Below, in pieces: positions 7,151 through 22,830 of a stretch of DNA of 61,776 nucleotides. Every line of letters starts with the position of its first letter. Position 1 is the first letter of the stretch. A program made the translations under genes and the position numbers. Location of the stretch: the NCBI GenBank assembly GCA_002448395.1, contig DJXS01000079.1:1-61776 (forward strand). Direction: 5' to 3'. The stretch is from Lachnospiraceae bacterium UBA6998 (GTDB lineage: Bacteria; Bacillota; Clostridia; Lachnospirales; Lachnospiraceae). The notes below the pieces were generated by a model that saw only the letters and a program-made list of their open reading frames with translations, was not told the DNA's origin and ran no database searches.

Positions 7151-7169
7151 CTTACGAATACATTAACGG

Positions 7170-7202
7170 AGCCCTGCCGGGATTTGCCGGCAGGGCTCTT
7201 GC
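7170..7202 (+). terminator. Hairpin terminator between convergent genes
   Basis: An 11-bp stem AGCCCTGCCGG (7170-7180) with CCGGCAGGGCT (7187-7197) and a short loop. The T tract is weak on the plus strand (CTTGCT). It lies between the phosphatase and the convergent minus-strand gene and may serve either. Confidence 0.65.
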
Positions 7203-7240
7203 TATAAGTATGGCTCTTCATGGTGATATACAGTCTTGGG

Positions 7241-8140: not shown

Positions 8141-8321
8141 AATCCCCCTGAATATGAAAAGGTCAAAATATCAATTAATAACAGTTTACCACTCTAAAAG
8201 ATAAAAGGAGATATATTTTGACGAGTTTTATGTATAATAGTTGATAGGAAATTACGTGTTTAATAGTATGCAGGGGATTTACCGCTCCGGCGTCTTCGCG
8301 CTGACAGGAAGGAGAGAGGCG

Positions 8322-8717
8322 GTGGAGAGAAGTCTATGGAAACGGGTTCTGATCGGAATTACGTTACCTGCCATATTTATCCTGCTGTGCATCTATGAGT
8401 ACCAGGGCGGCAGCGGAATGGAGTGCATGTTTTACCGATACACAGGGCTGTACTGTCCGGGCTGCGGATCGGGCAGAGCAGTCAGTGCGCTGTTCCATGG
8501 CCGTTTCGCGGAGGCAGTGTCTTACAATATTCTGCTTCCGATCCTCGGGATCCCATGCTTGATTGTGCTCGCTCACGAATATCTGCGTATCGTGTTCCCG
8601 GGGATGGAACTCAGACCGATCCGCATATCCCAGAGAACTGCGGTGATATTGACGGCGGTCATTGTTGTGTTCTGGATCCTCAGGAATGTGTCGGCGTTCG
8701 ATATTTTGGCACCTTGA
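8322..8717 (+). CDS. DUF2752 membrane protein
   Basis: A 131-residue protein with three TM helices and the DUF2752 hallmark Y-x-G-x-x-CPGCG-x-x-R (YTGLYCPGCGSGRAVSALFHGRFAEAVSYN). The two Cys of CPGC may bind a metal. I chose GTG 8322 because GGAAGGAG lies 6-8 nt upstream; the frame is open to a TTG at 8241, and an ATG at 8268 is possible but has no good RBS. It is followed by a direct repeat of the core and then a zinc-ribbon/CD225 gene; DUF2752 and CD225 genes often sit together in Bacillota. Function unknown. Confidence 0.78.
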   Translation: MERSLWKRVLIGITLPAIFILLCIYEYQGGSGMECMFYRYTGLYCPGCGSGRAVSALFHGRFAEAVSYNILLPILGIPCLIVLAHEYLRIVFPGMELRPIRISQRTAVILTAVIVVFWILRNVSAFDILAP

Positions 8718-8771
8718 TGCGGTACGGGATATGCCGTAGGGAACTGTGTGAAGTGCAGGATTTGGTGCGAG

Positions 8772-8828
8772 AAATCCATCCTCTGGGGTGGGGTAAAATG
8801 TAAATCCATCCTCTGGGGTGGGGTAAAA
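8772..8828 (+). repeat. Tandem 30-bp repeat with variant core
   Basis: Two direct units beginning AAATCCATCCTCTGGGGTGG, at 8772 and 8802. Each contains ATCCTCTGGGGT (8778-8789 and 8808-8819), one base off the consensus GACCTCTGGGGT at each of the first two positions. It sits between the DUF2752 and CD225 genes, just upstream of the latter's RBS. Confidence 0.85.
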
Positions 8829-8851
8829 AAGATAAGAGGGAGGCTGATATT

Positions 8852-9301
8852 ATGAAAATTTGTCCTTATTGCCACAATGAAAATGAGAACAGCAATAAGT
8901 TCTGCAATTTCTGCGGGGCACCGTTTGAAAATGATGCGGCGAAGGAGGAGAATAACGCGGTCGAAAGTGTGCCGGAGTACGAACCGAATGATTATCAGCC
9001 GCAGGACAACTCTGTGCCGGCACAGGAGAGCGAGGTTCCTGTCTACAACAACTATGATCTTGGAGCGAATAATGGGACTGTGACGCCGATACCGATCGGC
9101 GGGTATGTTGCCTGGAGTATTTTCGTGATTCTGTTTTGTACGATTCCGGGCATTGCGGCACTCTTTTATGTGCTGAGGATCAACCGGGCCACGACGCCGG
9201 AAGAGCAGTTAAAGACATTGGATACAGCGAAGAAGATTCTTATAGTCGGCACAGTGCTTGCCGTTATTAATCTCGTGAGTACTATTGCGTCGAATATGTG
9301 A
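8852..9301 (+). CDS. Zinc-ribbon CD225/dispanin-type membrane protein
   Basis: A 149-residue protein. Residues 4-22 form a zinc ribbon (CPYC and CNFC). Residues 25-75 are acidic and low in complexity. Residues 83-147 match the CD225/dispanin (IFITM-like) domain: helix YVAWSIFVILFCTIPGIAALFYVLRINRA, a loop, then AKKILIVGTVLAVINLVSTI. The intramembrane helix followed by a short cytoplasmic loop and a TM helix is the family's hairpin layout. RBS GGGAGG precedes ATG 8852. The cellular role of bacterial CD225 proteins is not established. Confidence 0.85.
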   Translation: MKICPYCHNENENSNKFCNFCGAPFENDAAKEENNAVESVPEYEPNDYQPQDNSVPAQESEVPVYNNYDLGANNGTVTPIPIGGYVAWSIFVILFCTIPGIAALFYVLRINRATTPEEQLKTLDTAKKILIVGTVLAVINLVSTIASNM

Positions 9302-9355
9302 GTTAGAGGATGAACCCCCGGGCGCTGCTGCACCCGGGGATTTTCGAGAGAACGG

Positions 9356-9409
9356 GACCTCTGGGGTGGTTTGTTCAGGGAGAATGGGAGAGAACGGGAC
9401 CTCTGGGGT
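9356..9409 (+). repeat. Two core repeats in the hflK leader
   Basis: Exact GACCTCTGGGGT at 9356-9367 and 9398-9409. Both are preceded by the same local flank GAGAACGG, so this is a local duplication of about 42 bp. It ends 11 nt before the AGGAGG of hflK. A GC-rich hairpin, CCCCGGG/CACCCGGGG near 9314-9340, lies just before it and may end the CD225 transcript. Confidence 0.88.
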
Positions 9410-9432
9410 ATCATTTATTAAGGAGGCAGAAT

Positions 9433-10521
9433 ATGGCTTTGAAGGATTTTTGGAAGAATAATCCGGTCAAAAACGGAAGCGGACCCGGTAACGGCTCCGA
9501 TGCAGGCGGGCAGAAACCCGACAAGGATAAAATGGCGAAAATGCTGAGCGCTATTTTGATCCCTGTAGTAGTGGTGCTTGTCCTTGTCAGAGTAGTGGCA
9601 GGGTCCTTCTATACCCTTTCGGAGACGGAAAGCGCTGTTGTAACGACTCTGGGGCAGGCAACGGTCAATAACAATAAGGGCTTGCAGTTCAAAATCCCCT
9701 TCATACAGGATGTGACCAAGATCAACACCACAGTGCGCAGCTTTGAGGTCGGCTATGTGGAGACCAGCGACGGGAGCTACCGAAACGTGGAGAGCGAGTC
9801 CACAATGATCACGTCGGACATGAATTTTGTGGATATTGACTTTTATGTGACTTATCAGGTCACGGACCCGCTGCAGTATATGTATGCCTCAGAGGTACCG
9901 GAGCTGATCCTTAAGAATCTGGTACAAAGCACCATCCGAGGAACTGTCAGTGCATATACGGTGGATTCCGCACTGACCACGGGCAAGTCAGAAATCCAGC
10001 AGAACATCAAAAACATAGTGATGGACGAACTGGAACAACAGAATATTGGCCTGTCATTGATCGATATTTCGATCCAGGACGTCGAACCGCCCACAGATCA
10101 GATCAAAGAAGCGTTCTCTGAGGTAGAGAATGCGAGACAGAATAAGGAATCTGCTTTGAACGAGGCCAACCAGTACCGAAACGAGCAGCTTCCTGCAGCA
10201 GAGGCCAAGGCAGATAAGATCATACAAAAGGCAGAGGCACAGAAGACTGCACGCATCAACGAGGCGAACGGTCAAGCGGCTCGCTTTAACAGCGAGTACA
10301 GCGAGTACATCAAATATCCGCTGATCACCAAGCAGCGTATGTTTTATGAGGCTATGGAGGAGATTCTTCCCAGTGTCAAGATCATCATCAACAATGATGA
10401 GGCGGGGACTACACAGCGGATGTATTTGGGTGATCTGGATGGGACTTTTGATTCGGCCTCGGCCTCGACCTCTGGGGTCAGGGGTTCCGCTTCCTCAGAT
10501 CAGTTGGGAGGTGAGCAGTGA
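9433..10521 (+). CDS. hflK: HflK-like SPFH/band 7 membrane protease regulator
   Basis: A 362-residue protein. Residues 1-35 are a Gly/Asn/Asp-rich cytoplasmic tail, residues 38-58 a TM helix (AILIPVVVVLVLVRVVAGSFY), followed by the SPFH/PHB domain (VVTTLGQATVNNNKGLQFKIPF ... VTYQVTDPLQYMYA). A long coiled coil (NARQNKESALNEANQYRNEQL, AEAQKTARINEANGQ) comes next. HflK with HflC forms a cage around the FtsH protease. Start is fixed by AGGAGG 7 nt upstream. The stop overlaps the next gene by one base, so the two are translationally coupled. Near the C-terminus (residues about 345-348) the 12-bp repeat is translated as Thr-Ser-Gly-Val within a Ser/Ala-rich tail, probably tolerated because the tail is not conserved. 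Confidence 0.88.
   Translation: MALKDFWKNNPVKNGSGPGNGSDAGGQKPDKDKMAKMLSAILIPVVVVLVLVRVVAGSFYTLSETESAVVTTLGQATVNNNKGLQFKIPFIQDVTKINTTVRSFEVGYVETSDGSYRNVESESTMITSDMNFVDIDFYVTYQVTDPLQYMYASEVPELILKNLVQSTIRGTVSAYTVDSALTTGKSEIQQNIKNIVMDELEQQNIGLSLIDISIQDVEPPTDQIKEAFSEVENARQNKESALNEANQYRNEQLPAAEAKADKIIQKAEAQKTARINEANGQAARFNSEYSEYIKYPLITKQRMFYEAMEEILPSVKIIINNDEAGTTQRMYLGDLDGTFDSASASTSGVRGSASSDQLGGEQ
10467..10478 (+). repeat. Core repeat inside hflK tail
   Basis: Exact GACCTCTGGGGT followed by C, giving a 4-bp GACC/GGTC hairpin. It is read in frame as TSGV. Confidence 0.9.
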
Positions 10522-11612
10522 TGAAGAAGCACATAGGAAAAATATTGGCTGCACTGATTGTCATCTACCTTCTTGTTAACATGGCGGCGGTCATCACTTA
10601 TCCCAACCAATACAAGGTCATTAAGACCATGGGCAAAATATCGAGAGTAACCACGGAACCCGGCTTTTCTCTTAGGATTCCTCTGATTCAAAGCGAGACC
10701 ACGATTTCCAAGGCACGGCAGCTTTACGACATCGCGCCCACCGAGATTTATACTTCTGATAAGAAAAAGATGGAAGTCGATGCTTATATCATTTGGCATG
10801 TAACAGATCCTATAAAATTCACGCAGACTCTGAATTCATCCACGGCGGGTGCTGAAAGCAAAATAAGCGCCATGGTTTACGGCGCACTGAAGGCCACTGT
10901 TTCCAGCACATCCCAGGAGGAACTGATCGCGTCGAGGGACGCAGCTTTAGATAAGACGGAGGAGGATGATGCACTGGATGTGGAAGTTCAGGACATCACC
11001 TCTGAGGACCTCAAAGAGGAGACCGGGACAAACACTGAGAGCTCTGAGGCTGGTTCAACTGGTGAAGCTGGTACAGCCGGAACGGGAACGGATTCGCAAG
11101 AGCAGCCGAAAGAGACAGAAGACGGCATGACGGTCATCGATGAGAACACCCGGGTTATCTCTCTTTCGAACAAGATACTCGAACAGTTAAACAAGGATTA
11201 TAATCCGGAACAGTACGGAATTGAAATCCAGATGGTCAAAATCAAGAAACTTGATCTTCCGGATGAAAACAAGGATGCTGTATACAACCGCATGATCACC
11301 GAGCGCAAAAATATTGCTGCCGCTTACAAAGCTCAGGGCGAGTCTGAGGCTCAAAAGATCCGCAACACCACCGACAGGGAGACAGCAGTTATGCTTTCAG
11401 AAGCGGAAGCTACAGCTAGCAGACTTGAGGCAGAAGGTGAGGCTGAATACATGCGAATCCTTTCCGATGCTTACAATGATCCTGACAAAGCGGAGTATTA
11501 TCTCTTCGTGCGCCAGCTGGACGCTGCAAAAAAGAGCCTTGAAAACGGGAACACTACACTCTTCCTTGACAGCGATTCGCCGCTTGCGAGCGTTTTCGAG
11601 CAGTCAGAATAG
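10521..11612 (+). CDS. hflC: HflC-like SPFH/band 7 protease regulator
   Basis: A 363-residue partner of HflK: TM helix at residues 7-27, then the PHB domain (NQYKVIKTMGKISRVTTEPGFSLRIPLI, VDAYIIWHVTDPIKF), and the QMVKIKKLDLPDENKDAVYNRMITERKNIAAAY motif typical of HflC. Residues about 143-206 are an unusual low-complexity acidic/Thr/Gly insertion (EETGTNTESSEAGSTGEAGT) that splits the band 7 domain from the coiled coil. Translation is coupled to hflK (ATG overlaps its TGA, with GGGAGGTGA 8 nt before). The last 30 nt of the gene plus 7 nt after it are duplicated exactly downstream, in association with repeat cores. Confidence 0.87.
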   Translation: MKKHIGKILAALIVIYLLVNMAAVITYPNQYKVIKTMGKISRVTTEPGFSLRIPLIQSETTISKARQLYDIAPTEIYTSDKKKMEVDAYIIWHVTDPIKFTQTLNSSTAGAESKISAMVYGALKATVSSTSQEELIASRDAALDKTEEDDALDVEVQDITSEDLKEETGTNTESSEAGSTGEAGTAGTGTDSQEQPKETEDGMTVIDENTRVISLSNKILEQLNKDYNPEQYGIEIQMVKIKKLDLPDENKDAVYNRMITERKNIAAAYKAQGESEAQKIRNTTDRETAVMLSEAEATASRLEAEGEAEYMRILSDAYNDPDKAEYYLFVRQLDAAKKSLENGNTTLFLDSDSPLASVFEQSE

Positions 11613-11656
11613 TGGAGCACTTGCGAGCGTTTTCGAGCAGTCAGAATAGTGGAGCA
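11583..11656 (+). repeat. Perfect 37-bp tandem duplication of the hflC 3' end
   Basis: Positions 11583-11619 and 11620-11656 are identical and adjacent. The first includes the last codons and stop of hflC; the second is untranslated. The duplicated unit ends GGAGCA, the same flank that precedes each repeat core in the array that follows. Confidence 0.95.
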
Positions 11657-11809
11657 GGACCTCTGAGTGGAGCAGGACCTCTGGGGCAGGGAGCAGGACC
11701 TCCAGGAGCACAGGAGCACAGGAGCAGGACCTCTGGGGTATGAGAAGTGGGGTATGAGAAGTGGGGTATGAGAAGGGTACGGCCGGAGCAGGACCTCTGG
11801 GGTACGAGA
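11657..11809 (+). repeat. Core-repeat array between hflC and the phosphoesterase
   Basis: Units of GGAGCAGGACCTCT type. Exact GACCTCTGGGGT at 11728-11739 and 11792-11803; variants at 11658 (CTGAGT), 11676 (ending GGGGC) and a decayed one at 11697. Three copies of a TATGAGAAGTGGGGT unit lie at about 11739-11779, so the array has expanded by at least two different local units. No coding potential is evident in this 234-bp gap. Confidence 0.88.
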
Positions 11810-11846
11810 AGAGTGGGCAATATTTTGACACGAGGAGAAACTTGGC

Positions 11847-12422
11847 ATGGCCAAAATATACTTTATTTCTGATCTTCATTTTGGGCATAAGGATGTGATC
11901 GCGTTTGACCGCAGGCCGTTCAAAGACGTGGAAGAGATGGAAGCAGAGCTGATTCGCAAGTGGAATGCCAAGGTTTCGCGTGACGACCATGTATTTGTAA
12001 TTGGAGATATGTTTGGAGGAGTTACAACGGCACATGCCGGCGAGATCGTGCAATCGTTGAACGGCAAAATACATCTTATTCGCGGCAACCATGACCCCAG
12101 AGGTCAGATTTTTGAGAGCCTGTTTGAGGATGTTGCTGCGTACAGAGAGATTCAAGTGCAGGTACGCGGTGTGAGGCAAAGAGTCATCATGCGGCACAGA
12201 CTCCTCCCATTTTTCAGAGGACATGATGAGGGCGCTGTCATGCTTTATGGGCATACGCACAACTCAATTGTTGCCCGGGGCGAGGACCAATGCATTCGCT
12301 TCGTGAATTGGCTCGGCATCCCATTTCATGCGTTCAACGTAGGAGCCTGCCGCTTGGACTATGAGCCCAAAACCCTCGAGGAGATACTTGAGAAAGCGGG
12401 AGAGATCAAGCAGGCAAAATAG
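11847..12422 (+). CDS. Calcineurin-like metallophosphoesterase
   Basis: A 191-residue single-domain phosphoesterase with the full metal site: D-x-H (DLHFGH, residues 9-14), GD (GDMFGG), GNHD at about 79-82 and GHTH (YGHTHNS). It resembles YfcE-like or short phosphohydrolases that cut phosphodiesters with two metals. RBS is GAGGAG. Immediately after the catalytic GNHD motif the 12-bp repeat is translated as Pro-Arg-Gly-Gln (residues 83-86), very close to the active site; whether activity survives cannot be told. It was probably once neighboured by a second intact phosphatase (next entry). Confidence 0.83.
   Translation: MAKIYFISDLHFGHKDVIAFDRRPFKDVEEMEAELIRKWNAKVSRDDHVFVIGDMFGGVTTAHAGEIVQSLNGKIHLIRGNHDPRGQIFESLFEDVAAYREIQVQVRGVRQRVIMRHRLLPFFRGHDEGAVMLYGHTHNSIVARGEDQCIRFVNWLGIPFHAFNVGACRLDYEPKTLEEILEKAGEIKQAK
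12094..12105 (+). repeat. Core repeat beside the active site of the phosphoesterase gene
   Basis: Exact ACCCCAGAGGTC with a 5-bp potential stem (TGACC/GGTCA). It follows the GNHD codons directly and stays in frame. Confidence 0.9.
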
Positions 12423-12448
12423 TGAGATTACTGATAATTAATTAAAAG

Positions 12449-12476
12449 GCGCAGGCGAATGAAGCCTGCGCTTTTT
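12449..12476 (+). terminator. Rho-independent terminator
   Basis: An 8-bp stem GCGCAGGC (12449-12456) with GCCTGCGC (12464-12471), then five T. Confidence 0.9.
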
Positions 12477-12550
12477 CCCTTAATTGCCTAAAATGTTGTA
12501 TTATACAACTAAGCTATAAATAAATCGTAGGGAAAATAGAAGGAGGAGAT

Positions 12551-13362
12551 ATGAATACGGTCATTAGTGAAGGAGATAAATCTTACCCCAGAGAATCATC
12601 TGTATATACTTGGGGACATGATTGACCGAGGGCAGGACGGTATTCGGATTCTGCAAGATGTCTCTTCGCGCCCTAATGTCACATGCTTGCTTGGAAACCA
12701 CGAGTACATGATGTGGAACTATGTTAGTTGTCACATCTTTAAAGACCTTAACTGGCTGAATCCTTCCAATGGCGGAATGCAGACTCTCTCCGAATATCGA
12801 AAACTCATGCCTGCCGACAGAGCATCTGTCAAAAAATATCTTGCTGAGCTTTTTCTCCAAATAGAGCTGACAGTGGAAGGCACGACATTTCTGCTATCTC
12901 ATTCATCCTTCCTTTCCGGTTACGGTACTGTAAAATGGCGAGACAAGTCGATCACCGCAGCAGATGTCTCAAATGTGGTCTGGTATTCTCCGTGGAGATC
13001 TTTTGAACATATGGAACCCCAGAACATATGGAACCCCAGAGGTATCGTACTGAGAACATACGGAACCCCAGAGGTATCGTACTGATAATAGATACCATAT
13101 CATTGGGCATGTGCCTGTCATGATGATTGACGACAGGTATTGGCAGGATAATTGCATGCCTGAAATGCCGGCTTTTTACCAAGATCCATTGAATTGGATT
13201 ATCAATATAGACCTAGGCTGCGCAATGATTCCGATCATTAAGGCTAATCCCGACAGATTTGAAGATTCCTTCAAGAAAGTGCCGTCACTCTGCGTCCTGA
13301 ATCTGGAAAACTTCGCAAAAGGAATAGAGCTTGTGGCAACTTATATCCGGGGAATAGTGTGA
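12551..13362 (+). pseudogene. Broken PrpA/ApaH-like serine/threonine-type phosphoesterase
   Basis: The remnant of a calcineurin-type phosphatase with two independent lesions. An ATG with a good RBS (GGAGG) at 12551 starts MNTVIS, the usual N-terminus before the D-x-H-G motif, but the next bases jump out of frame to KEINLTPENHLYILGDMIDRG. About 15-20 residues, including the first metal-binding Asp-x-His, are missing. The GDMIDRG and LLGNHEYM motifs remain. At 13005-13085 the sequence GAACATATGGAACCCC occurs three times (17 + 32 + 32 bp). One 32-bp unit alone keeps the frame (EHTEPQRYRTDNRYHIIGHVPV), but the extra 49 bp shift it by one base and produce stop codons near 13084. Downstream the frame resumes through IIGHVPVMMIDDRYW to the true stop at 13362. 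Confidence 0.85.
13005..13085 (+). repeat. Tandem expansion that shifts the phosphoesterase frame
   Basis: Units at 13005-13021 (17 bp, truncated), 13022-13053 and 13054-13085 (32 bp each, one mismatch). Each contains ACCCCAGA; the two full ones read ACCCCAGAGGTA, one base from the consensus. Confidence 0.92.
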
Positions 13363-13370
13363 TGTTGCCA

Positions 13371-13424
13371 GAGACTGCGACCTCTGCAGAGACTCAGAGA
13401 CTCAGAGACTGCGACCTCTGGGGT
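13371..13424 (+). repeat. Core repeats downstream of the RAYT gene
   Basis: GAGACTGCGACCTCTG occurs at 13371-13386 (variant, CTCTGCAG) and 13406-13421, the latter as an exact GACCTCTGGGGT (13413-13424). Short GAGACTCA repeats lie between. It abuts the 3' end of the transposase gene. Confidence 0.85.
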
Positions 13425-13494
13425 GGGGGAGCTGGGTGGGGTAGCTTGAGCGAAGTCCAGGCGACAGATTGTATCGCAGGTATTGCCGACCAGT

Positions 13495-14250
13495 TCAGAC
13501 TGCCAGCGCCAATGCCTTCCTGATCACGCCATACGAGATCCCGGTTATCCTGCTGGCCTGCTTCATAGAGATATGGGCCATCCGCATATTGCATAGTACA
13601 TTGTCCCTCTGAGTGATATCAAGTGATTGAAATTCCGCCACATTGCGGCATCCGGATAGCCGCTGCATGATGCTTATCGCGATTTCATCGGTAAGCCGCG
13701 GTATTTCCTCCTCAATATCAAGGCACAGATCGTTATTATCTGCACAATTAAATTTTATAAAGTCGTTTTTGCTGGTCTCTGACAAAATTAGCTCACTGTC
13801 GATCAGATCATTGTCAAAATATCCTCGGAAGCTGCTGTATTTGTACTTCCTCGGATGATTGCAGATTGCGGCCTTTACTGGATTTTGATGAATATATCTA
13901 GTCACGATCAGGAGCTGCGACCGGTTGTTGATGGGCCTGCTTTTGAAACGAGCCTGGAACAGACTCCCGACACGCTGGTATTTTTTGTTATACCAGTACA
14001 CAAAACTAGGTATTATTCGCTGAAAGATTCTTGGCAACGGAATTTCGCCGGGCTTGATGAGCAGATGGATATGATTTGACATCAGACAATAGGCAATGAT
14101 TTTGTAACCACAAATGGGCTGATATTTCCTAAGAATTGACAAAAACGTCTCATAGTCTTCGCTATCCTCGAAAATACGCTGTTTATTAATTCCGCGATAA
14201 ACCACATGATAAATACCTAAATTGCTGGAAAGACGAGGGCGTGTCGGCAT
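13495..14250 (-). CDS. REP-associated tyrosine transposase (RAYT-like, Y1/HUH)
   Basis: A 251-residue single-strand DNA transposase of the IS200/TnpA-REP superfamily. Catalytic features: HUH motif His60-Ile-His62 (LMSNHIHLLIKP), the YNKKYQRVGSLFQARFKSRPI region, and the nucleophile Tyr119 in VTRYIHQNPVKA. Residues 168-251 form an extra C-terminal domain ending in a helix-turn-helix-like ISMKQASRITGISYGVIRKA, common in Bacillota members. RBS AGGAGGT is 9 nt upstream, so it is likely expressed. It has no IS200-type ends or TnpB partner visible, which fits a domesticated RAYT rather than a mobile IS. Copies of the 12-bp hairpin sequence flank it on both sides (13413 and 14456-14580). It is the only transposase in the window. 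Confidence 0.88.
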   Translation of the reverse strand: MPTRPRLSSNLGIYHVVYRGINKQRIFEDSEDYETFLSILRKYQPICGYKIIAYCLMSNHIHLLIKPGEIPLPRIFQRIIPSFVYWYNKKYQRVGSLFQARFKSRPINNRSQLLIVTRYIHQNPVKAAICNHPRKYKYSSFRGYFDNDLIDSELILSETSKNDFIKFNCADNNDLCLDIEEEIPRLTDEIAISIMQRLSGCRNVAEFQSLDITQRDNVLCNMRMAHISMKQASRITGISYGVIRKALALAV

Positions 14251-14455
14251 AAAGAAATGACCTCCTGATGTGATTGAAAGAATGCGTCACCTTAGTCATT
14301 ATGGGCTGGCACTTGAAAAAAGCAATTGTCTGCTGGCCTTACACTTCGGCGACACCGGTTTGATTTGATAGAGACTTGAGAAGCGCCAAAACAGAGGCAC
14401 TTGATCAGTTGACTAAATGGTAGCACAGGCAATTCGGGTATTCAAGTTTGGATAT
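14251..14455. other. Leader region of the RAYT gene, nothing further recognised
   Basis: This 205-bp stretch between the transposase start and the repeat array holds the AGGAGGT RBS on the minus strand. I see no clear promoter, hairpin or reading frame. Together with the array it forms a 369-bp gene-free gap. Confidence 0.5.
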
Positions 14456-14580
14456 GACCTCTGGGGTGGATAGGGTGGATATGACCTCTGGGGTGGAGGT
14501 GGATATGACCTCTGGGTGGATATGGGTGGATATGACCTCTGGGGTAGAGGGAAGAAATAAAGAAATACGACCTCTGGGGT
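14452..14580 (+). repeat. Five-copy core array upstream of RAYT and of the 147-residue protein
   Basis: Exact GACCTCTGGGGT at 14456-14467, 14483-14494, 14534-14545 and 14569-14580, and one copy with a G deleted at 14507. Four are preceded by the same GGATAT flank (unit GGTGGATATGACCTCTGG), so the array grew by local tandem duplication. Confidence 0.92.
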
Positions 14581-14619
14581 TCATACCTGTGTCTGTGACT
14601 TCACAAACAGGAGGAGAAC

Positions 14620-15063
14620 ATGGATATAGACGAATTAATAGAAAAGCCGTATTGGATTGTAGACATTCTTCCGGAGCAGGTTGCGAAAAATTCAGATGGC
14701 CAATATTTTGCCATCGAACAGTATTATCTGAGCGAACCCCAGAACTCGGAATTGCGTAAAAAGTATGCCGGTTTGATCCTGAAACTAAACTGTTACCATG
14801 ACATTTATGTCTTGAATGATTTTGCTGAGGATTCCGAATGCGGAGAGCTAAATCCCGATCCCAATAAACTCGTGAGTTATACTGTGGGAGAATATGCAAA
14901 AAATAGCGTGCGCTTTTTTATCAGGAATGAGAACACACTGATAGTATCAAATATTGATGATACATATCTGACGATTTATAACCCTTCGGAACGCGCTCTT
15001 GCATTAATACGCAGACTGGCGGCCGCAGAGGGGCTGTATGTTTGGAGGCCTGTGGAAACTTGA
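14620..15063 (+). CDS. Conserved hypothetical protein of 147 residues
   Basis: A soluble protein beginning MDIDELIEKPYWIVDILPEQV with GQYFAIEQYYL, LILKLNCYHDIYV, and ending YNPSERALALIRRLAAAEGLYVWRP. The 'KPYWVIDILP ... EGLYVWKP' pattern is one I recognise from an uncharacterised family widespread in Clostridia. No catalytic motif is visible. RBS AGGAGGAG precedes ATG 14620. No function is proposed. Confidence 0.75.
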   Translation: MDIDELIEKPYWIVDILPEQVAKNSDGQYFAIEQYYLSEPQNSELRKKYAGLILKLNCYHDIYVLNDFAEDSECGELNPDPNKLVSYTVGEYAKNSVRFFIRNENTLIVSNIDDTYLTIYNPSERALALIRRLAAAEGLYVWRPVET

Positions 15064-15067
15064 TCGC

Positions 15068-15079
15068 GACCTCTGGGGG
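15068..15079 (+). repeat. Variant core repeat
   Basis: GACCTCTGGGGG, one base from the consensus, 5 bp after the stop of the 147-residue protein. Confidence 0.75.
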
Positions 15080-15156
15080 AGGGTGATTGTGTGGCAGTAA
15101 TTATGATCAGAATATGTAATCAGAAAGTAAATCAGACGTGATATATAAGGGATAGT

Positions 15157-15173
15157 GAGACCTCTGAGGTCTC
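15157..15173 (+). repeat. Near-perfect palindromic version of the repeat
   Basis: GAGACCTC (15157-15164), one T, then GAGGTCTC (15166-15173): an 8-bp stem with a single central base. It equals the core with GGGG changed to GAGG, which turns the imperfect hairpin into a palindrome. Confidence 0.85.
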
Positions 15174-15189
15174 TCACACAAAAATAATA

Positions 15190-15254
15190 GCCATGAGACC
15201 CCAGAGGTCTCAGAGGTCCATAGGTCTCAGAGGTCATGAGACCCCAGAGGTCTC
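15190..15254 (+). repeat. Core repeats in the leader of the DUF4230 gene
   Basis: Exact ACCCCAGAGGTC at 15198-15209 (7-bp arms TGAGACC/GGTCTCA, 15194-15212) and 15241-15252 (6-bp arms). Degenerate CAGAGGTC fragments lie between them. The second ends about 10 nt before the AAGGAG of the next gene, so its hairpin could affect translation. Confidence 0.9.
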
Positions 15255-15271
15255 CCACAAAAGGAGTAATC

Positions 15272-15937
15272 ATGGATTATATCAAACAGCATCGCAACCA
15301 GATTTACTTGGGTGTGACCATAATAGCCGTACTGCTTGCCATAGTGCTTAGCCTGGACTACAAAATCCGAAGGGACGCTGAGCAGAACGAAACAGCTGTC
15401 ACCGCTACGACCATAAAGGAAAAAGAGAAGAAGGACAGAGTGGTGATCTCCGTCAGCACCGACACCATCCAGGATGGGCTGGCAAATATGGGCTTTCTGA
15501 TCACGCAGGAGTACTATTTTACCCAGGTGGAGAAATATACGAAGGAGAAGACTTTCTTGAAGTTCATCACCTCATCCTCAGAGTTCATGTACAGCTACGA
15601 CGGAGCTGTTATGGCGGGCATAGATTTTGGGAAGATCAAGATCAAGACTGATGAAGACCGCAAGATCATTGCAGTCGAAATGCCGGACTCCGAGATTCAG
15701 ACAGTCACGATCGACAAAGACACTTTCAAGATTTACTCAGAAAAGGATTCTCTGTGGAATCCGCTCAAACTGGAAGATTACAATATTTCGCTCGTTGAGT
15801 TTGAAAATGCAGCCAAAGATAAAGCCATCGCAAGCGGCATTCTTGAGCGTTCAGATGAGCAGGCCCGGAAGCTCGTGCGTGAGTTCATTATCAGCCTTCC
15901 GAACACAAGTGAATACACAATTTCATTCACAGACTAA
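15272..15937 (+). CDS. DUF4230 membrane-anchored protein
   Basis: A 221-residue protein. A single N-terminal TM helix (IYLGVTIIAVLLAIVLSLDY, residues 9-28) is followed by a DUF4230 domain: VVISVSTDTIQDGLANMGFLITQEYYFTQVEKYTK, FMYSYDGAVMAGIDFGKIKIKTDEDRKIIAVEMPDSEI, and the C-terminal RKLVREFIISLPNTSEYTISF. The domain should lie outside the membrane. Start at ATG 15272 behind AAAAGGAG; an upstream in-frame ATG at 15236 lies inside the repeat cluster and is rejected. It is 12 bp from the next membrane-protein gene, probably one operon. Function of DUF4230 is unknown. Confidence 0.83.
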   Translation: MDYIKQHRNQIYLGVTIIAVLLAIVLSLDYKIRRDAEQNETAVTATTIKEKEKKDRVVISVSTDTIQDGLANMGFLITQEYYFTQVEKYTKEKTFLKFITSSSEFMYSYDGAVMAGIDFGKIKIKTDEDRKIIAVEMPDSEIQTVTIDKDTFKIYSEKDSLWNPLKLEDYNISLVEFENAAKDKAIASGILERSDEQARKLVREFIISLPNTSEYTISFTD

Positions 15938-15949
15938 GGGGTGAGTGCT

Positions 15950-16726
15950 ATGAAAAATGCTTTGAATTATCAGAAGCTCATGATTGTTGCGCTGTTGATC
16001 CTTTTTGCTGTTATATCCATTACCAAAATAGCGCCCGCCGCCGCGGATCCGGCCAATCACAAACATTCTATAGAACAGACGGAAGAGAAAATCACGTCAG
16101 TCATGACTCTTTCGGGCGGGGCTGCCGCCACATCTGCCACACTTTCCCTACTGCCGGGCGACATGTGCACGCCTCTGGCAGAGCAGCTGGCTGAGTTGGC
16201 AAAATATTTTCTCCTGATCCTCAGCGCCCTTTACCTCGAAAAATTCCTGATAAGCCTGTCAGGCTATATTTCATTTATGATTCTGATTCCGCTGGCCTGC
16301 TTTATTGTATGCGTCGCTGTGATGACCGGGAAACAAAATCTTACCCGAACTGCTGCCAAAATAGCGCTTATCGGCATAATCATCTTTGGAATAGTTCCTG
16401 CAAGTGTTAAACTTTCAGATATGGTGTACCAGACACAGGCCTCAAAGGTCAACGACGCAATTGATGATTATAACAACCTTGAAATCGAGGGCGATGGTGA
16501 AAGCGGGCTTTTCAACGAGTTCAACACTATCACGAATGAAACGATCGAGAACGTGTCATCATTCATGGACAACCTTCTTGAGTCCCTTGCCGTTATGATC
16601 GTGACATCGTGTGTGATCCCGCTTCTTGTCTTTTTCTTCCTGGTGTGGCTGGTAAAGGTTGTCTTTTCTGCCAATATTTTGGTGCTCGATACGACCTCGC
16701 TGGAAGCTCTGACCAAGAGACCCTGA
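15950..16726 (+). CDS. Multi-pass membrane protein of unknown function
   Basis: A 258-residue protein with an N-terminal signal-like helix (IVALLILFAVISITKIA), a soluble segment, three or four central helices (YFLLILSALYLEKFLISL, ISFMILIPLACFIVCVAVM, IALIGIIIFGIVPASV), an acidic 50-residue loop (DAIDDYNNLEIEGDGESG), and a last helix (VIPLLVFFFLVWLVKVVF). I do not recognise the family. Start at ATG 15950 behind AAGGGG; GTG 15941 is an alternative. The last seven codons run into a repeat array, so the C-terminus LEALTKRP may have been reset by repeat expansion. Confidence 0.68.
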   Translation: MKNALNYQKLMIVALLILFAVISITKIAPAAADPANHKHSIEQTEEKITSVMTLSGGAAATSATLSLLPGDMCTPLAEQLAELAKYFLLILSALYLEKFLISLSGYISFMILIPLACFIVCVAVMTGKQNLTRTAAKIALIGIIIFGIVPASVKLSDMVYQTQASKVNDAIDDYNNLEIEGDGESGLFNEFNTITNETIENVSSFMDNLLESLAVMIVTSCVIPLLVFFFLVWLVKVVFSANILVLDTTSLEALTKRP

Positions 16727-16780
16727 CCAAGAGACCTCTGGGGTGACCAAGAGACCTCGACCAAGAGACCTCTGGGGTAG
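16711..16780 (+). repeat. Tandem GACCAAGAGACC array at a gene end
   Basis: Four units of GACCAAGAGACC at 16711, 16725, 16745 and 16759. The second and fourth are completed to exact GACCTCTGGGGT cores (16733-16744, 16767-16778); the others are truncated. The stop codon of the upstream gene falls inside the first unit. Confidence 0.9.
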
Positions 16781-16807
16781 CATGTTAAACAGAACGGAGA
16801 TTGTCAT

Positions 16808-17596
16808 ATGCCTGATTATAAAACAATTGATCAATTACCTTTAGAATTAAACATCAGGGATCTGGGAGGGCTTGAGACCAAGGACGGAAGACATGTCAAA
16901 AGAGGGATGCTCTTCAGAAGTTCTGCATTGGCATTTTTTGACGAGGAAGAATTGAAGCCGGTGCGAAATCTGGGGATTAGAACTATTTTGGATTTCAGGG
17001 CGTTGAAGGGGATTCAGAAAGATCCGGATCCTGAACTTGAGGGAGCGGCATACTATAACAAATGCGCTGCGTTTCAAAACTTTTTGGACGATCTGAACTC
17101 GCCAGGAGAGCTTGCAAGTCTGATTTTTGACGAAGAGCAATCAGGAAATGCTGTGGATGTGCTGGTTTCCAGCTACACTGCATCCCTTGCTTTTTCTAAT
17201 GAATCATACAAGTTTATGTTTGACTGCCTGTTGGCAGGTGAAGCCCCGATGCTGTTTCATTGCACCAACGGTAAGGACAGGACAGGGGTGGCCGCCATGT
17301 TGATCCTGCTGGCTTTGGGGATTCCGGAAGAAGTCGTGAAAGAGGATTACATGCAGAGCAACATCTGCAGGCAGCCTGACATTGATGAGCTTATGGAGAG
17401 GTTCAAAATAATCACCGGAAGACTTGAGAATGCTAGATCCTTCTTCACAATGGTCGGGGGCGTCCTGCCTCATTCAGCGGACATGGTGATATCGGAAATC
17501 TTGGAGCGCTACGGCACTTTCGAGAATTACATGGAGCAGGAGTATGGGGTTGACAGAGAGCTTTTGAAGAAATTCAGAGATATGTATCTGGAATAA
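16808..17596 (+). CDS. Tyrosine-protein phosphatase (Y_phosphatase3 type)
   Basis: A 262-residue protein of the IphP / MptpB family. It contains LNIRDLGGLETKDGRHVKRGMLFRSSAL near the N-terminus, IRTILDFRALKGI, and the P-loop HCTNGKDRTG, with nucleophile Cys152 and Arg158, followed by AAMLILLALGIPEEVVKEDYMQSN. These enzymes remove phosphate from phosphotyrosine, and some also from phosphoinositides, in the cytoplasm or after export. No signal peptide is seen. RBS GGAG lies 8 nt before ATG 16808. Confidence 0.9.
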   Translation: MPDYKTIDQLPLELNIRDLGGLETKDGRHVKRGMLFRSSALAFFDEEELKPVRNLGIRTILDFRALKGIQKDPDPELEGAAYYNKCAAFQNFLDDLNSPGELASLIFDEEQSGNAVDVLVSSYTASLAFSNESYKFMFDCLLAGEAPMLFHCTNGKDRTGVAAMLILLALGIPEEVVKEDYMQSNICRQPDIDELMERFKIITGRLENARSFFTMVGGVLPHSADMVISEILERYGTFENYMEQEYGVDRELLKKFRDMYLE

Positions 17597-17600
17597 CGCA

Positions 17601-17725
17601 GACACTTGACCCCAGACACTTGACCCCAGACACTTGACCCCAGAGGTCTTATCAGGTATCAGGTGAGGGACTATTGAAACACATGACCCCAGAGGTCTAG
17701 AGGTCATATCAGGTGAGGGACTATT
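17601..17725 (+). repeat. Core repeats plus a duplicated ribosome binding segment
   Basis: GACACTTGACCCCA occurs three times in tandem (17601, 17615, 17629); only the third is completed to an exact core (17637-17648). A second exact core is at 17686-17697. An 18-bp segment holding the RBS of the next gene, ATCAGGTGAGGGACTATT, is present twice (17658-17675 and 17708-17725), 50 bp apart, so local gene sequence was duplicated with the core. Confidence 0.9.
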
Positions 17726-18499
17726 ATGCTGGAAACGGAAAGGCTTGTTTTGCGCCGGAGGGAAAACAGCGATGCAGGAAATTTATACGAATACACCAAA
17801 GACCCTGATGTCGGACCGTGGAAAACGGACAGTGCGCAGGTGCCTGCCTTCCAAGTGCTTACCTTCGGCAATCCGGAAGCAGATACACTGCTGATTCAGA
17901 TGGTTGATGATCATGATCTTGAAGTGATCGAGAGCGAAGTCTCTTATATCGGGAAATTGTCCGGCGGACAATGTTTTGACCTGAAGGCGGTCAGGGTAAA
18001 GAACTGGAACAACGACCTGTCACCGTGGCCGGCTCCGGCGGTTTTCGGAGATGAGGGATTTGGAGGCGGCGCGCAGGGAGTTCTGGACTTTGTCATGGGC
18101 AAAATAGTGCCGACCCCAGAGGTCATTAAATCGCGAGGGATAAAGCGAATCTTCATCGGCGGGTACTCCCTTGCTGCGCTGTTCGCGCTCTGGGCAGGCT
18201 ATCAGACAGATATTTTTGACGGCATTGCAGCGGCTTCGCCGTCGGTCTGGTTCCCGGACTTTACAGAATATATGCGGGAAAACGAAATTCACGCGGATGC
18301 AGTATACCTTAGCCTTGGCGATCGTGAGGAACGAACGAGAAACCCGGTCATGTCCCAGGTTGGAAAAGCGATCCGGGAGGCACATAATCTGCTTACGGCC
18401 TCCCGGATCGAGTGCGAACTGGAATGGAATAAGGGAAACCATTTTAAGGAGCCGGACCTTCGGACGGCGAAAGCTTTTGCATGGCTCATGAACCGCTGA
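17726..18499 (+). CDS. Alpha/beta hydrolase with an N-terminal GNAT acetyltransferase fragment
   Basis: A 257-residue chimera. Residues 1-32 (METERLVLR-like LETERLVLRRRENSDAGNLY then EYTKDPDVGP) are the textbook start of a RimJ-type GNAT acetyltransferase, but the rest of that domain is absent. From about residue 33 the chain is an esterase-like alpha/beta hydrolase: TLLIQMVDDHDLEVIESEVSYI, LSPWPAPAVFG, nucleophile in FIGGYSLAALFALWAGYQTD, AAASPSVWFP, and a C-terminal His in KGNHFKEPDLRTAKAF. The 12-bp repeat is translated as TPEV at residues 130-133. RBS is GGTGAGGG. The hydrolase may still be active; the acetyltransferase part cannot be. Confidence 0.78.
   Translation: MLETERLVLRRRENSDAGNLYEYTKDPDVGPWKTDSAQVPAFQVLTFGNPEADTLLIQMVDDHDLEVIESEVSYIGKLSGGQCFDLKAVRVKNWNNDLSPWPAPAVFGDEGFGGGAQGVLDFVMGKIVPTPEVIKSRGIKRIFIGGYSLAALFALWAGYQTDIFDGIAAASPSVWFPDFTEYMRENEIHADAVYLSLGDREERTRNPVMSQVGKAIREAHNLLTASRIECELEWNKGNHFKEPDLRTAKAFAWLMNR
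18113..18124 (+). repeat. Core repeat inside the hydrolase gene
   Basis: Exact ACCCCAGAGGTC, preceded by G and followed by A, read in frame as Thr-Pro-Glu-Val in a loop before the nucleophile strand. CAAAATA lies immediately upstream at 18100. Confidence 0.9.
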
Positions 18500-18505
18500 T
18501 AAGCT

Positions 18506-18600
18506 ACCCCAGAGGTCAGTTTCGGAACTGACAAGCTACCCCAGAGGTCGGTTTCGGACAAGCCACCCCAGAGGTCGGTTAATAACCCAGAGGTCGGTTA
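18506..18600 (+). repeat. Four-copy core array between convergent genes
   Basis: Exact ACCCCAGAGGTC at 18506-18517, 18538-18549 and 18565-18576; a shortened ACCCAGAGGTC at 18584. Flanks CAGTTTCGGA / CGGTTTCGGA and CGGTTAATAA are duplicated with the cores. The last unit ends 6 bp from the stop codon of the minus-strand gene. Confidence 0.9.
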
Positions 18601-18606
18601 ATAAAA

Positions 18607-19089
18607 TCAACGGCGCTCAAAAGCCTGCGGGCTGATTTCTACCTTCGGCCCATGGATCAGTCCGTCCTCAGTTAGAAGGTCGCATCCGCCGAAGGCCCAC
18701 GCATAAATCTTCTCGAGTCCTGCGCCGCAGACAACTCTGCGCAGATTCCTGCAGTCCTTAAATGCAAATGGCGGGATGATCCTTAGCTGATCGGGCAGAA
18801 CAATTTCTTCAATTCCACATCTGACGAAGGTGTAGCCCCATAGTGTTTTCAATTGCTCCGGCAGCTTCAGCTGCCGGAGATTTATGCATCCGTCAAACAG
18901 AAATTCCCCCATATCTGTCACAGAATCCGGGATCTGAATAGAAGTGATCTCGTCGTGCCCGCGAAATACTTTGTCATTCAGGATCGTAAAGATTTTGTCA
19001 TCCGGTATGATGACTTCTGCTTCATCTCCCTCATAACCCGTAAGGCAAAAAGTGCCGTCTTCAACGCGTCTGTAGTAAAACTCCTGCAT
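18607..19089 (-). CDS. Short leucine-rich repeat protein (BspA-like LRR_5)
   Basis: A 160-residue cytoplasmic protein with about five BspA-type leucine-rich repeats: IPDDKIFTILNDKVFRGHDEI, TSIQIPDSVTDMGEFLFDGCINL, RQLKLPEQLKTLWGYTFVRC, GIEEIVLPDQLRIIPPFAFKDC, RNLRRVVCGAGLEKIYAWAFGG. There is no signal peptide. RBS GGAG is 9 nt before the start. Such repeats bind proteins; the partner is unknown. It is convergent with the hydrolase gene and separated from it by a core-repeat array. Confidence 0.85.
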   Translation of the reverse strand: MQEFYYRRVEDGTFCLTGYEGDEAEVIIPDDKIFTILNDKVFRGHDEITSIQIPDSVTDMGEFLFDGCINLRQLKLPEQLKTLWGYTFVRCGIEEIVLPDQLRIIPPFAFKDCRNLRRVVCGAGLEKIYAWAFGGCDLLTEDGLIHGPKVEISPQAFERR

Positions 19090-19207
19090 GTGTATATCTC
19101 CTTAAAGTGTTTTCACTTAATAGAATGCCATAAAACGATTATACTGCAACTGCGAAATTGTAATAAGTACATAGCAATCGCGGTCCAGCTTCGGCTGCTT
19201 CAGCTTC

Positions 19208-19275
19208 GACCTCTGGGGTAGTTTGTGGTCAGCCCAGCCCCGACTTCGCCCAGCCCCAGCCCCGACCTCTGGGGT
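19208..19275 (+). repeat. Two core repeats upstream of the acyltransferase
   Basis: Exact GACCTCTGGGGT at 19208-19219 and 19264-19275. Both continue TAG and both are preceded by C-rich duplicated words (CAGCTTCGAC, CAGCCCCGAC). They lie in the 301-bp gap 19090-19390; the rest of that gap shows only the GGAGGTGGG ribosome binding site of the next gene. Confidence 0.9.
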
Positions 19276-19390
19276 AGCTTGTCAATCAAACATAACATTG
19301 GACCTGCCCAAATGTTCTGTTTGGTTGGTGGACGTGGTCCCTCCATCGCGATATGATTTTGTTAAGAATAATTGCGGAGGTGGGATTATT

Positions 19391-20479
19391 GTGAGAAAAT
19401 ATTATTTAGATAACATCAGATGGATCACGGTAGTGATCGTAGTTTTATATCATGTGATCTATATGTATAACGCGGAAGGGATTCCGGGGGTGTGCGGTAA
19501 GATCACAGATCTTGAAGTTCAGTATTTTGACGTGTTTCAGTACATCGTGTACCCCTGGTTCATGATGCTGCTTTTCATGGTTTCCGGGATCAGCTCGCGG
19601 CTCTATCTGGATAATCATTCCCACAGGGAATTCATCAGCAGCAGGACGACGAAGCTCCTGGTGCCTTCCACGATCGGACTGTTTGCTTTCCAGTTCCTGC
19701 AGGGATATGTCAATGTTGCTCTTGGAGGCGTCGTCTTCAAAGACCCCGGTATACCCCTGATTGCGAAGGTGCTGATCTGTATCGCAAGCGGAAGCGGAGT
19801 GCTCTGGTACATTCATCTACTGTGGCTGTTCTCTATGCTGCTTGTGCTTGTGAGGAGAATCGACAGGGACAGGCTTTGGAACGCCTGCGGAAAGGCTGGC
19901 TTCCCGGTGCTTGCCGTGCTCGCTCTTCCGACCTATGGGGCGGCGCAAATCCTCAATACGCCGATTGTCAGTGTCTACCGATTCGGGCTGTATTTCTTTG
20001 TTTTTCTGCTGGGCTATTTTGTCCTGTCCCATGACGAGGTGATCGAGGTCCTGGAGAGGTGGTTTCCGCTGCTGGCGGTGACCTCTGGGGTACTGGGAGC
20101 AGCGTTCTGCGCGCGATATTTTGGCGAAGTTTATGCGGACAATCCGGTATATCGCTCCGTGCTGTTCGTCACATACGGATATTTTGCCTGCCTGGCGATC
20201 TTAGGCGGCATGTCAAAATATTGCGACTTCAGCAACAGTTTCACCCGCTGGATGAGCAAGAGGAGTTTCGGTTTGTATGTGTTTCACTATCTGGGGATCT
20301 CTTCGGTGGCACTATTTGTGGGCAGGCGAGGAATCCTTCCCGCACCTGCGGTGTATCTCTTAAGTCTGATTGCAGGGGTCGCGGGCGGATATCTCCTGAA
20401 TGAGATCATTTCAAGGATACCGGGTTACAGATGGGCGGTGCTGGGTATCAAAGAGGAGAAGAAAAATGTTCAAGGATAA
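19391..20479 (+). CDS. Acyltransferase 3 family membrane protein
   Basis: A 362-residue integral membrane acyltransferase. It begins RKYYLDNIRWITVVIVVLYHVIYMYN, the family's opening with the conserved 'D.iRw..v..Vv.yHv', and continues with about ten hydrophobic helices and R-x-x-R-like SSRTTKLLVPSTIGLFAFQF. Such enzymes O-acetylate or succinylate cell-surface sugars. GTG 19391 was chosen because GGAGGTGGG lies 8 nt upstream; the frame is open back to 19223, but that segment is repeat-derived. Residues 230-234 (VTSGV) encode the 12-bp repeat inside a TM helix. The 3' end overlaps the next gene by 14 bp. Confidence 0.85.
   Translation: MRKYYLDNIRWITVVIVVLYHVIYMYNAEGIPGVCGKITDLEVQYFDVFQYIVYPWFMMLLFMVSGISSRLYLDNHSHREFISSRTTKLLVPSTIGLFAFQFLQGYVNVALGGVVFKDPGIPLIAKVLICIASGSGVLWYIHLLWLFSMLLVLVRRIDRDRLWNACGKAGFPVLAVLALPTYGAAQILNTPIVSVYRFGLYFFVFLLGYFVLSHDEVIEVLERWFPLLAVTSGVLGAAFCARYFGEVYADNPVYRSVLFVTYGYFACLAILGGMSKYCDFSNSFTRWMSKRSFGLYVFHYLGISSVALFVGRRGILPAPAVYLLSLIAGVAGGYLLNEIISRIPGYRWAVLGIKEEKKNVQG
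20080..20091 (+). repeat. Core repeat inside a predicted TM helix of the acyltransferase
   Basis: Exact GACCTCTGGGGT, read in frame as Thr-Ser-Gly-Val. Confidence 0.88.
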
Positions 20480-20903: not shown

Positions 20904-21058
20904 GTTACCCCGGCACCCCAGCAACCTACCCCACCAGCAACCTACCCCAGAGGTCTAAGCGGTCTAAGCTGCCCAGCACCCTGGCAACCTACCCCAGAGG
21001 TCTAAGTTGGCAACCTACCCCAGAGGTCTAAGTTGGCAACCTACCCCAGAGGTCTAAG
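20889..21058 (+). repeat. Five-copy core array at the end of the regulator gene
   Basis: Exact ACCCCAGAGGTC at 20889-20900, 20944-20955, 20991-21002, 21017-21028 and 21043-21054. The last three form a clean 26-bp tandem (unit GGCAACCTACCCCAGAGGTC plus TAAGTT). A GTAG-complement CTAC precedes four of them. The array ends at the ATG of the methyltransferase gene. Confidence 0.93.
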
Positions 21059-21060
21059 TC

Positions 21061-22719: not shown

Positions 22720-22760
22720 GGAGTGTCGGGGTTGACATTAATAAGAGCTATATACACGAA

Positions 22761-22822: not shown

Positions 22823-22830
22823 GATTAAAG

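Follow-up and report, generated by a model that had tools for sequence, protein, structure and literature searches.

Repeats concentrated around a RAYT-like transposase gene in a Lachnospiraceae genome and most of the relatives examined

A RAYT-type gene and its product

The stretch of DNA analysed here (61,776 nt; hereafter the window) belongs to Lachnospiraceae bacterium UBA6998, whose 2.42-Mb assembly consists of 138 contigs and is 73% complete. Statements about published systems refer to excerpts of the papers cited. The gene of interest and its main features are as follows.

13495..14250, minus strand: gene for a RAYT-like Y1 (HUH) transposase of 251 aa (open reading frame list, Pfam and NCBIfam profiles, alignment, model and fold match)
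14065..14073, minus strand: HIH (HUH) motif, residues 60-62 (H60 and H62 invariant in the alignment)
13894..13896, minus strand: catalytic Tyr119 in YIHQNP, the Y---NP signature (Y119, N123 and P124 invariant)
13498..13569, minus strand: C-terminal HTH-like segment, approximately residues 228-251 (model helices 229-236 and 240-250)

The product of this gene is an HUH nuclease of the RAYT/TnpA_REP type. It matches the Pfam family PF01797 (Y1_Tnp) with 51.8 bits against a cut-off of 23, and scores 68.9 bits with the NCBIfam equivalog REP_Tyr_transpos, below the cut-off of 80. H60, H62, F98, Q99, Y119, N123 and P124 are invariant among nine aligned relatives whose identity goes down to 40%; the protein has FQ at 98-99 and, with YIHQNP at 119-124, the Y---NP signature described for class 2 RAYT/TnpA_REP proteins (PMC6006769). 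The best fold match in the PDB to an AlphaFold2 model (mean pLDDT 86.4) was 4er8, a REP transposase with its hairpin (Foldseek, E 2.5e-8; TM-score 0.73 by target and 0.49 by query), followed in the list by the ISDra2, IS200 and IS608 transposases; a sequence search of solved structures gave no match. An earlier note, made from the sequence alone, had called the protein a REP-associated tyrosine transposase on the strength of HIH 60-62 and Tyr119, and the profile match, the invariant residues and the fold match bear this out. Where the note placed a C-terminal HTH-like domain, the model has two helices, and Pfam called no HTH in the protein. The note had also described the gene as the only transposase of the window, and a Pfam scan of fifty of the other window ORFs found no further one. 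One ORF outside the repeat field, at 39815-40498, matches PF00302 (chloramphenicol acetyltransferase family).

The source genome, at 73% completeness, holds the window RAYT gene once, together with one relative of 36% identity; the several near-identical copies per genome that characterize IS200/IS605 elements are absent from it. Of 11 homologous loci with a named source, nine are from uncultured Lachnospiraceae MAGs, one is from Ruminococcus flavefaciens and one from a member of the Clostridia. Isolate names beginning with RUG presumably denote rumen genomes.

The repeat field of the window

The gene lies within a field of short repeats, in which the following features were recorded.

838..27680: repeat field, 42 exact copies of GACCTCTGGGGT (50 with at most one mismatch), centred near the RAYT gene
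838..881, minus strand: repeat pair (one exact, one with one mismatch) within ORF 675-1997
2003..2106, minus strand: four-copy array
3897..3910, plus strand: lone copy within ORF 3423-4883
9356..9411, plus strand: tandem pair, flank duplicated
10467..10478, plus strand: lone copy close to the 3' end of a Band_7 gene
11676..11805, plus strand: three copies (one with one mismatch) and partial units (GGGGT and right flank repeated)
13033..13076, minus strand: two one-mismatch copies; insert absent at the orthologous sites of G244, G247 and G249
13413..13426, plus strand: RAYT-flanking copy, downstream side
14456..14580, plus strand: RAYT-flanking array, upstream side, of four exact copies and one degenerate copy; local tandem duplication
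15068..15252: cluster including the symmetric form GACCTCTGAGGTC
16733..16780, plus strand: tandem pair with a partial unit in between
17637..17697, minus strand: pair and partial units
18504..18595, minus strand: four-copy array, one copy with one mismatch
19208..19277, plus strand: tandem pair
20887..21054, minus strand: five-copy array, three copies 26 bp apart
22809..22822, minus strand: lone copy
24301..24402, minus strand: three-copy array
25550..25563, minus strand: lone copy
27628..27680, minus strand: pair, the last copies of the field

The first exact copy of the 12-mer lies at 840 and the last at 27669, and the 14-mer GACCTCTGGGGTAG occurs 33 times in the window with at most one mismatch, against 0.02 expected. 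As the earlier note had stated, the repeats span 0.84-27.68 kb and flank the RAYT gene on both sides (13413 and 14456), and between 27.7 and 61.8 kb there is no exact copy; only two matches with two mismatches were found there. The source genome as a whole contains 187 exact copies and no occurrence of the pattern read backwards. Since 145 of the 187 are on contigs other than that of the window, a single genome-wide field around the window RAYT is ruled out. A set of 200 genomes, with one for each genus in the family, yielded the 14-mer in the source genome only.

The copies lie mostly outside genes: 28 of the 42 are outside ORFs as called, in a region with a coding share of 84%, and 34 of 42 are outside genes after three repeat-derived ORF starts were trimmed by hand (region 83% coding). 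At 9310, 19223 and 24261 repeats fall within apparent 5' extensions of ORFs, so that the starts assigned there by gene callers may lie too far upstream. Five of the 12 in-ORF copies (840, 3897, 18113, 24303 and 24345) read in the TPEV frame. The core is missing from relatives to which the copy at 18113 aligns without gaps; chance may therefore account for some of the in-gene copies.

Architecture of the repeat

The earlier note had described the repeat as a 12-bp hairpin, and this description does not hold. In a DNA fold the bare 14-mer is not notable (-1.1 kcal/mol, z -0.98), which rules out the 12-mer as a hairpin on its own. Where the mobile unit is best preserved, it is a near-palindrome of 50 or 68 nt, a REP doublet, with the 12-mer as its tip; elsewhere in the source genome the 12-mer forms the end of a near-perfect palindrome such as GACCTCTGGGGTAGTTTGTCCACAGGTGTGGACAAACTACCCCAGAGGTC. 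The 50-mer folds as single-stranded DNA with -27.5 kcal/mol (z -10.8). Within 100 nt, head-to-head pairs number 223 and tail-to-tail pairs 33 (in the stretches used, orthologous copies included), and the commonest start-to-start spacings are 38 nt (79 pairs) and 56 nt (40 pairs). The 50-nt class (58 distinct sequences) has compensatory changes in the inner stem: positions 20 and 31 are paired in 43 of 58, against 26.4 expected from the columns, and positions 21 and 30 in 47 of 58, against 29.6. In the 68-nt class (40 distinct) there is little compensatory excess. At two loci (L052 and L053; G260, RUG13777) the tip lies at the centre of the palindrome, with arms like GGTCAAATGACC and GGTCATTTGACC, and not at its ends.

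Inward-pointing tip pairs bound the hairpin stem (TTTGTCC...), and in the better-preserved fields the tip is mostly followed by RG. Canonical REPs carry GT[AG]G at the foot of their hairpin stem. In arm-bearing fields, which comprise fields of the RAYT-B locus and one field without a RAYT (described below), GGGGTRG is followed by the TTTGTCC stem, and in the 50-nt form GTAG itself is paired. After the core, the window copies have A at 52% and G at 57%. The RGTTTG arm is found on 4 of the 42 window tips, whereas two RAYT-B fields have it on 54 of 63 and on 58 of 66 tips; as it is infrequent in other RAYT-B fields (6/26, 1/30 and 2/48) and frequent in one RAYT-less field (48/59), it does not strictly follow the type of RAYT. 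The copies in the window are mostly degenerate half-units, and no Rfam family reached its threshold in the window.

Copies also occur in local tandem duplications, of which the duplicated unit is the core with its local flank and varies by locus. In a histogram of raw counts, the breakpoints of partial copies are mostly mid-core. Of the left partial units (n = 118), the 53 with no more than one core base were dropped, and 47 of the 65 kept end at positions 6-9; of the right partial units (n = 83), the 37 with no more than one base were likewise dropped (an N run in L019 accounts for part of them), and 31 of the 46 kept hold the last 4-8 core bases. Polymerase slippage at a quasi-palindrome could also give such mid-core breakpoints.

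Repeat density around RAYT genes

Contigs with a RAYT were chosen from the RAYT matches in genomes of the genus; for some of them the repeats were already known beforehand. Positions of the repeats (at most one mismatch) and of the RAYT gene are given by genome and contig.

Window: repeats 0.8-27.7 kb; RAYT 13.5 kb
G257:C20: repeats mostly 14.8-34 kb; RAYT 29.4 kb
G206:C12: repeats 38-63 kb, a pair at 27; RAYT 46.9 kb
G214:C42: repeats mostly 24-40 kb, smaller groups at 10, 17 and 51; RAYT 30.8 kb
G251:C30: repeats 6.3-17.2 kb; RAYT 12.2 kb
G247:C32: repeats 0-30 kb, satellites at 52-70; RAYT 9.0 kb
G244:C13: repeats 5.5-37 kb; RAYT 23.2 kb

The repeats are thus concentrated around the RAYT of the window and those of most relatives examined. 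Plotted against distance from the RAYT gene over 11 loci (partly orthologous, with G240 left out and only some contigs extending past 20 kb), the pooled density of clusters falls from 0.82 per kb at 0-5 kb to 0.51 (5-10 kb), 0.44 (10-15 kb), 0.26 (15-20 kb) and 0.04 (20-30 kb), and is 0.07 and 0.05 per kb beyond. For two better assemblies the copies were counted from whole-genome listings. In G206, 32 of 52 copies and 12 of 26 clusters are within 20 kb of two full-length RAYTs, a count that leaves out a third, fragmentary RAYT on C41, where the share of the genome covered leads one to expect 2.4%. In G214, at least 70 of 105 copies (100 listed) are no more than 20 kb away from one of two RAYTs or from an end fragment on C83 (2.6% expected). 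The earlier note had proposed spread mainly to nearby places. Nearness to the gene holds for each field, but not for the source genome as a whole, where the majority of copies is on other contigs.

Repeat fields are also present at G214:C61, G206:C24, G247:C38 and the end fragment G214:C83. In G237:C32 repeats extend across nearly all of the 20 kb examined, and in G237:C22 a second cluster lies 17-20 kb from the RAYT. The RAYT of G240 has no repeat copy on its 6.4-kb contig. By shared neighbours, the window, G237:C22 and G214:C83 form one locus (RAYT-A), and G247, G251, G206 and G214 share another (RAYT-B). Because the neighbouring genes group the loci in this way, they suggest that RAYT-A, RAYT-B, the locus of G206:C24 and G214:C61, and G237:C32 occupy distinct positions on the chromosome, with at least four neighbourhoods in all. 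Contig C85 of the source genome starts where the RAYT-B gene ends in G247; the source genome therefore has a RAYT-B field as well, with the gene apparently in an assembly gap.

Pairing of repeat and RAYT clade

A tree was constructed of 38 full-length RAYTs, comprising 36 of 52 RAYT matches and two further loci; of the matches outside the tree, ten were partial, so that only their flanks were counted, and six were left out. The window RAYT belongs to a clade of 19 members (support 98/95). At least two tips (at most one mismatch) are present within 1 kb of the gene in 18 of the 19 clade members, the exception being G240 with none; the 19 full-length RAYTs outside the clade have no tip at all within that distance. 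The repeat thus tracks the RAYT clade, and on the RAYT tree the tip shows up once, with one absence. Among the partial RAYTs, the fragments in G206:C41 and G214:C83 are accompanied by the tip, and the other eight by neither this repeat nor the one described next.

A second palindromic family, GGGACGGTTC, occurs in pairs approximately 35-70 nt apart and flanks many of the more-distant RAYTs (L031-L033, L035-L037, L039 and L054, in genomes G203, G204, G205, G225 and G253). At least two copies (at most one mismatch) are near 14 of the 19 outsiders, 11 of these 14 with at least one exact copy. Two matches were required because four clade members also have a single one-mismatch match. In the fuller tree the pairing of the tip was kept at 18/19 against 0/19, and the claim for the second repeat was weakened. 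Five outsiders have neither repeat nearby. They include the two RAYTs nearest to the clade, G251:C18 and G260:C23, which share 51-52% identity with that of the window and have neither repeat within 1 kb. GGGGACGGTTC is present in 151-223 copies in four genomes and in 24 in G225. In G203 this second repeat is dispersed: the first 100 of its 223 places, up to C51, fall on 24 contigs, at least 100 copies are off the RAYT contigs C89 and C91, and seven are in the 20 kb around one RAYT.

Among 62 genomes of the genus, 18 have the tip, and each of the 12 genomes whose RAYT has 50% identity or more holds 12-235 exact copies. Presence of the RAYT is associated with the number of repeats (12/0/4/46; P = 8e-10, Fisher's exact test). 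We do not rely on this result, because a host tree (marker found in 16 of 30 genomes) places the repeat-bearing genomes in one or two clades; at genus level the co-occurrence is confounded by phylogeny.

Fields without a RAYT

Two of the outcomes that the earlier note had named as refuting its view were observed in part: fields dense in repeats but without a RAYT, and genomes that have repeats and lack the gene. A dense palindrome field of 34 kb with 68 copies occupies 8-42 kb of G257:C3, a 118-kb contig; no RAYT was found in the 60 kb examined, nor on the contig among the RAYT matches. Orthologues of this field are present in G247 (C23), G244 (C41) and the source genome G000 (C7 and C65), so that some of the source genome's other copies belong to a RAYT-less field. 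The RAYT-B field of G251 holds genes of both the B field and the G257:C3-type field, and may be a rearranged part of the latter. Further RAYT-less clusters, at G234:C32 (33-67 kb), G214:C88 (10-20 kb) and G247:C32 (approximately 49-77 kb), are syntenic, and 17 of the 19 copies of G234:C32 are in the RAYT-less field. No hidden RAYT was detected in these orphan fields by a six-frame HMM search (with a profile that included antisense rows from minus-strand loci) or by tblastn to E 5 with oriented queries. The most suggestive match, in G234:C32, was rejected as it sits in another long reading frame, which we take to encode an ammonium transporter. Four genomes, all incomplete MAGs, have at least five copies without a RAYT of at least 50% identity. 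In G248 (93% complete), the 17 copies form scattered arrays, and the RAYT search gave no match there.

Alternative explanations

These fields bear on the first of three alternatives, in which the host amplifies the repeats by replication slippage or template switching at the quasi-palindrome and the RAYT merely inhabits repeat-rich, tolerant intergenic regions. The locus-specific unit of the tandem duplications, core with local flank, agrees with this as well. Slippage alone, however, would not carry the same tip to many intergenic sites over tens of kb, and it leaves unexplained both the tracking of tip and RAYT clade and the decay with distance from the gene; we consider this alternative unlikely.

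Also improbable, in our view, is that an ancestral repeat-rich segment was inherited together with its RAYT, local action being old history and the enzyme now used otherwise. Sites are conserved between species in 300 of 324 directional comparisons, so that present activity is not established, and both the restriction of repeat-bearing genomes to one or two host clades and the RAYT-B neighbours common to G247, G206, G214 and G251 fit inheritance of a block. Against it stand the at least four neighbourhoods, each apparently with its own RAYT and field; the few sites at which presence of the insert differs between close species (e.g. window 13033 and G000:C65 5213); and the state of the genes, since all 19 full-length clade members are free of stops and the two fragments, G206:C41 and G214:C83, are at contig ends. 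The remaining 24 of the 324 comparisons concern empty sites; approximately nine of these are gap-free and thus point differences, and no consensus footprint of the insert was obtained from them.

In the third alternative, which we hold to be very improbable, the RAYT supplied the repeats and selection concentrated them as signals of the host (e.g. nucleoid sites, terminators or stabilisers of mRNA): the intergenic bias and the stable hairpin of the full element would suit it, but it gives no reason for the limit of 15-20 kb around the RAYT, the window units mostly lack the hairpin arm, and no Rfam family reached the threshold there.

A proposed short-range copying model

We consider it probable instead that a RAYT with a long HTH-like tail, similar to TIRYTs, nicks and copies the REP doublet mainly at short range. 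We build here on the protein family, the repeat, its field, the clade-specific pairing and the doublet architecture as observed, and infer from them the site of cleavage, the copying and the cause of the short range. The RAYT is predicted to bind the hairpin as a single strand and to nick within the tip, most likely after CT in GACCTCT^GGGGTAG. TnpA_REP enzymes are known to cleave single strands at CT, with a nearby GTAG as guide (PMC8266576), and GGGGW opens the motif in many of the TIRYT inverted repeats in print (PMC3733652). A nick in mid-tip is suggested because the tip GACCTCT|GGGGTAG holds both CT and GTAG, because breakpoints are mid-core, and because of this GGGGW start. The cut strand would then be transferred to single-stranded DNA elsewhere in the vicinity, which would give rise to new copies and half-copies mostly within approximately 15-20 kb of the enzyme's own gene, with local tandem duplications as by-products of nicking and rejoining. 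The short range may stem from cis-preference of the nascent protein or, alternatively, from transfer within one replication fork.

More tentatively, and with the odds somewhat against it, this RAYT lineage may be cis-restricted, each gene building and maintaining its own field of approximately 15-20 kb on each side, with several separate fields in one genome, out of a 12-nt tip used both as nick site and as target. Related RAYTs of the same genus, in contrast, are associated with the genome-wide dispersed GGGACGGTTC. If the lineage is cis-restricted, the range would be a trait, open to measurement, of the enzyme or of the single-stranded DNA nearby. The mechanism by which REPs spread is still unproven, and a copy density that depends on distance makes short-range, RAYT-dependent copying directly testable; the value of such a test lies in the decay in several neighbourhoods, with the dispersed repeat of related RAYTs as contrast. 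The system also offers an abundant repeat partner for RAYTs resembling the long, HTH-like-tailed type catalogued without any, and suggests that such enzymes copy their own repeats mostly to nearby places.

Comparison with known systems

The E. coli TnpA_REP structure 4er8 shares the HUH/Y1 fold and is the best structural match, although identity over the aligned part is 17% and its chain has 165 aa against 251. Proteins of TnpAY1 subclass 2.1 and TIRYTs are described with a C-terminal HTH-type domain, approximately 238 aa and FQ or W[EQ] (PMC6006769, PMC3733652). The window RAYT resembles TIRYT/TIRtron and subclass 2.1 proteins (Di Nocera 2013, PMC3733652; PMC6006769), which have approximately 240-250 aa, FQ and an HTH-like C-terminus, in its 251 aa, FQ at 98-99 and two C-terminal helices; it differs in having no Pfam HTH and in its Y motif, YIHQNP, which fits subclass 2.6 rather than 2.1 (PMC6006769). 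Inverted repeats on the flanks, which in some species form dimers of moderate abundance (PMC3733652), are a further likeness to TIRYTs, as is the second repeat type here, GGGGACGG, which nearly fits the published TIRYT motif GGGGWSAS (PMC3733652). For subclass 2.1, no REP-like repeats are reported in the excerpts of Quentin 2018 (PMC6006769), whereas here repeats are present near the gene, and the 12 genomes whose RAYT has 50% identity or more have 12-235 exact tips each.

Like REPIN-RAYT systems (Bertels and Rainey 2011, PMC3116915), the repeats form inverted REP doublet hairpins, are intergenic, and occur in tandem arrays with flanks and in RAYT-adjacent clusters. The REPIN trait of two inverted REPs in one hairpin is present in the arm-bearing fields and little in the window. 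That of genome-wide dispersal is absent: REP doublets of P. fluorescens SBW25 are described as random in extragenic space (PMC3116915), while those here are concentrated in fields.

The closest precedent is that of Nunvar et al. 2010 (PMC2817692), in which, as far as the excerpts go, REPs of three marine gammaproteobacteria and Thauera are confined to or enriched around rayt genes instead of genome-wide, as here; RAYT presence was linked to REP number, and new copies were proposed to form preferentially near rayt. The earlier note's suggestion of a possibly new type therefore stands only in part, accumulation of REPs near a RAYT being already published. The differences lie in range and host, with proteobacterial regions of up to approximately 200 kb against approximately 25-35 kb in a genus of Lachnospiraceae MAGs, in genomes that have several RAYT loci, each with its own field, and in the repeats, some of which come down to a 12-nt tip whose flanks vary. 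Literature searches by the letters of the repeats (among the matches listed) and by terms gave no relevant description of the repeat sequences, and we found no report of a RAYT-repeat system in this Lachnospiraceae lineage. The chemistry and the tendency are thus known; what appears to be new is the tight, repeated, RAYT-centred fields and the clear pairing of repeat and enzyme in this lineage.
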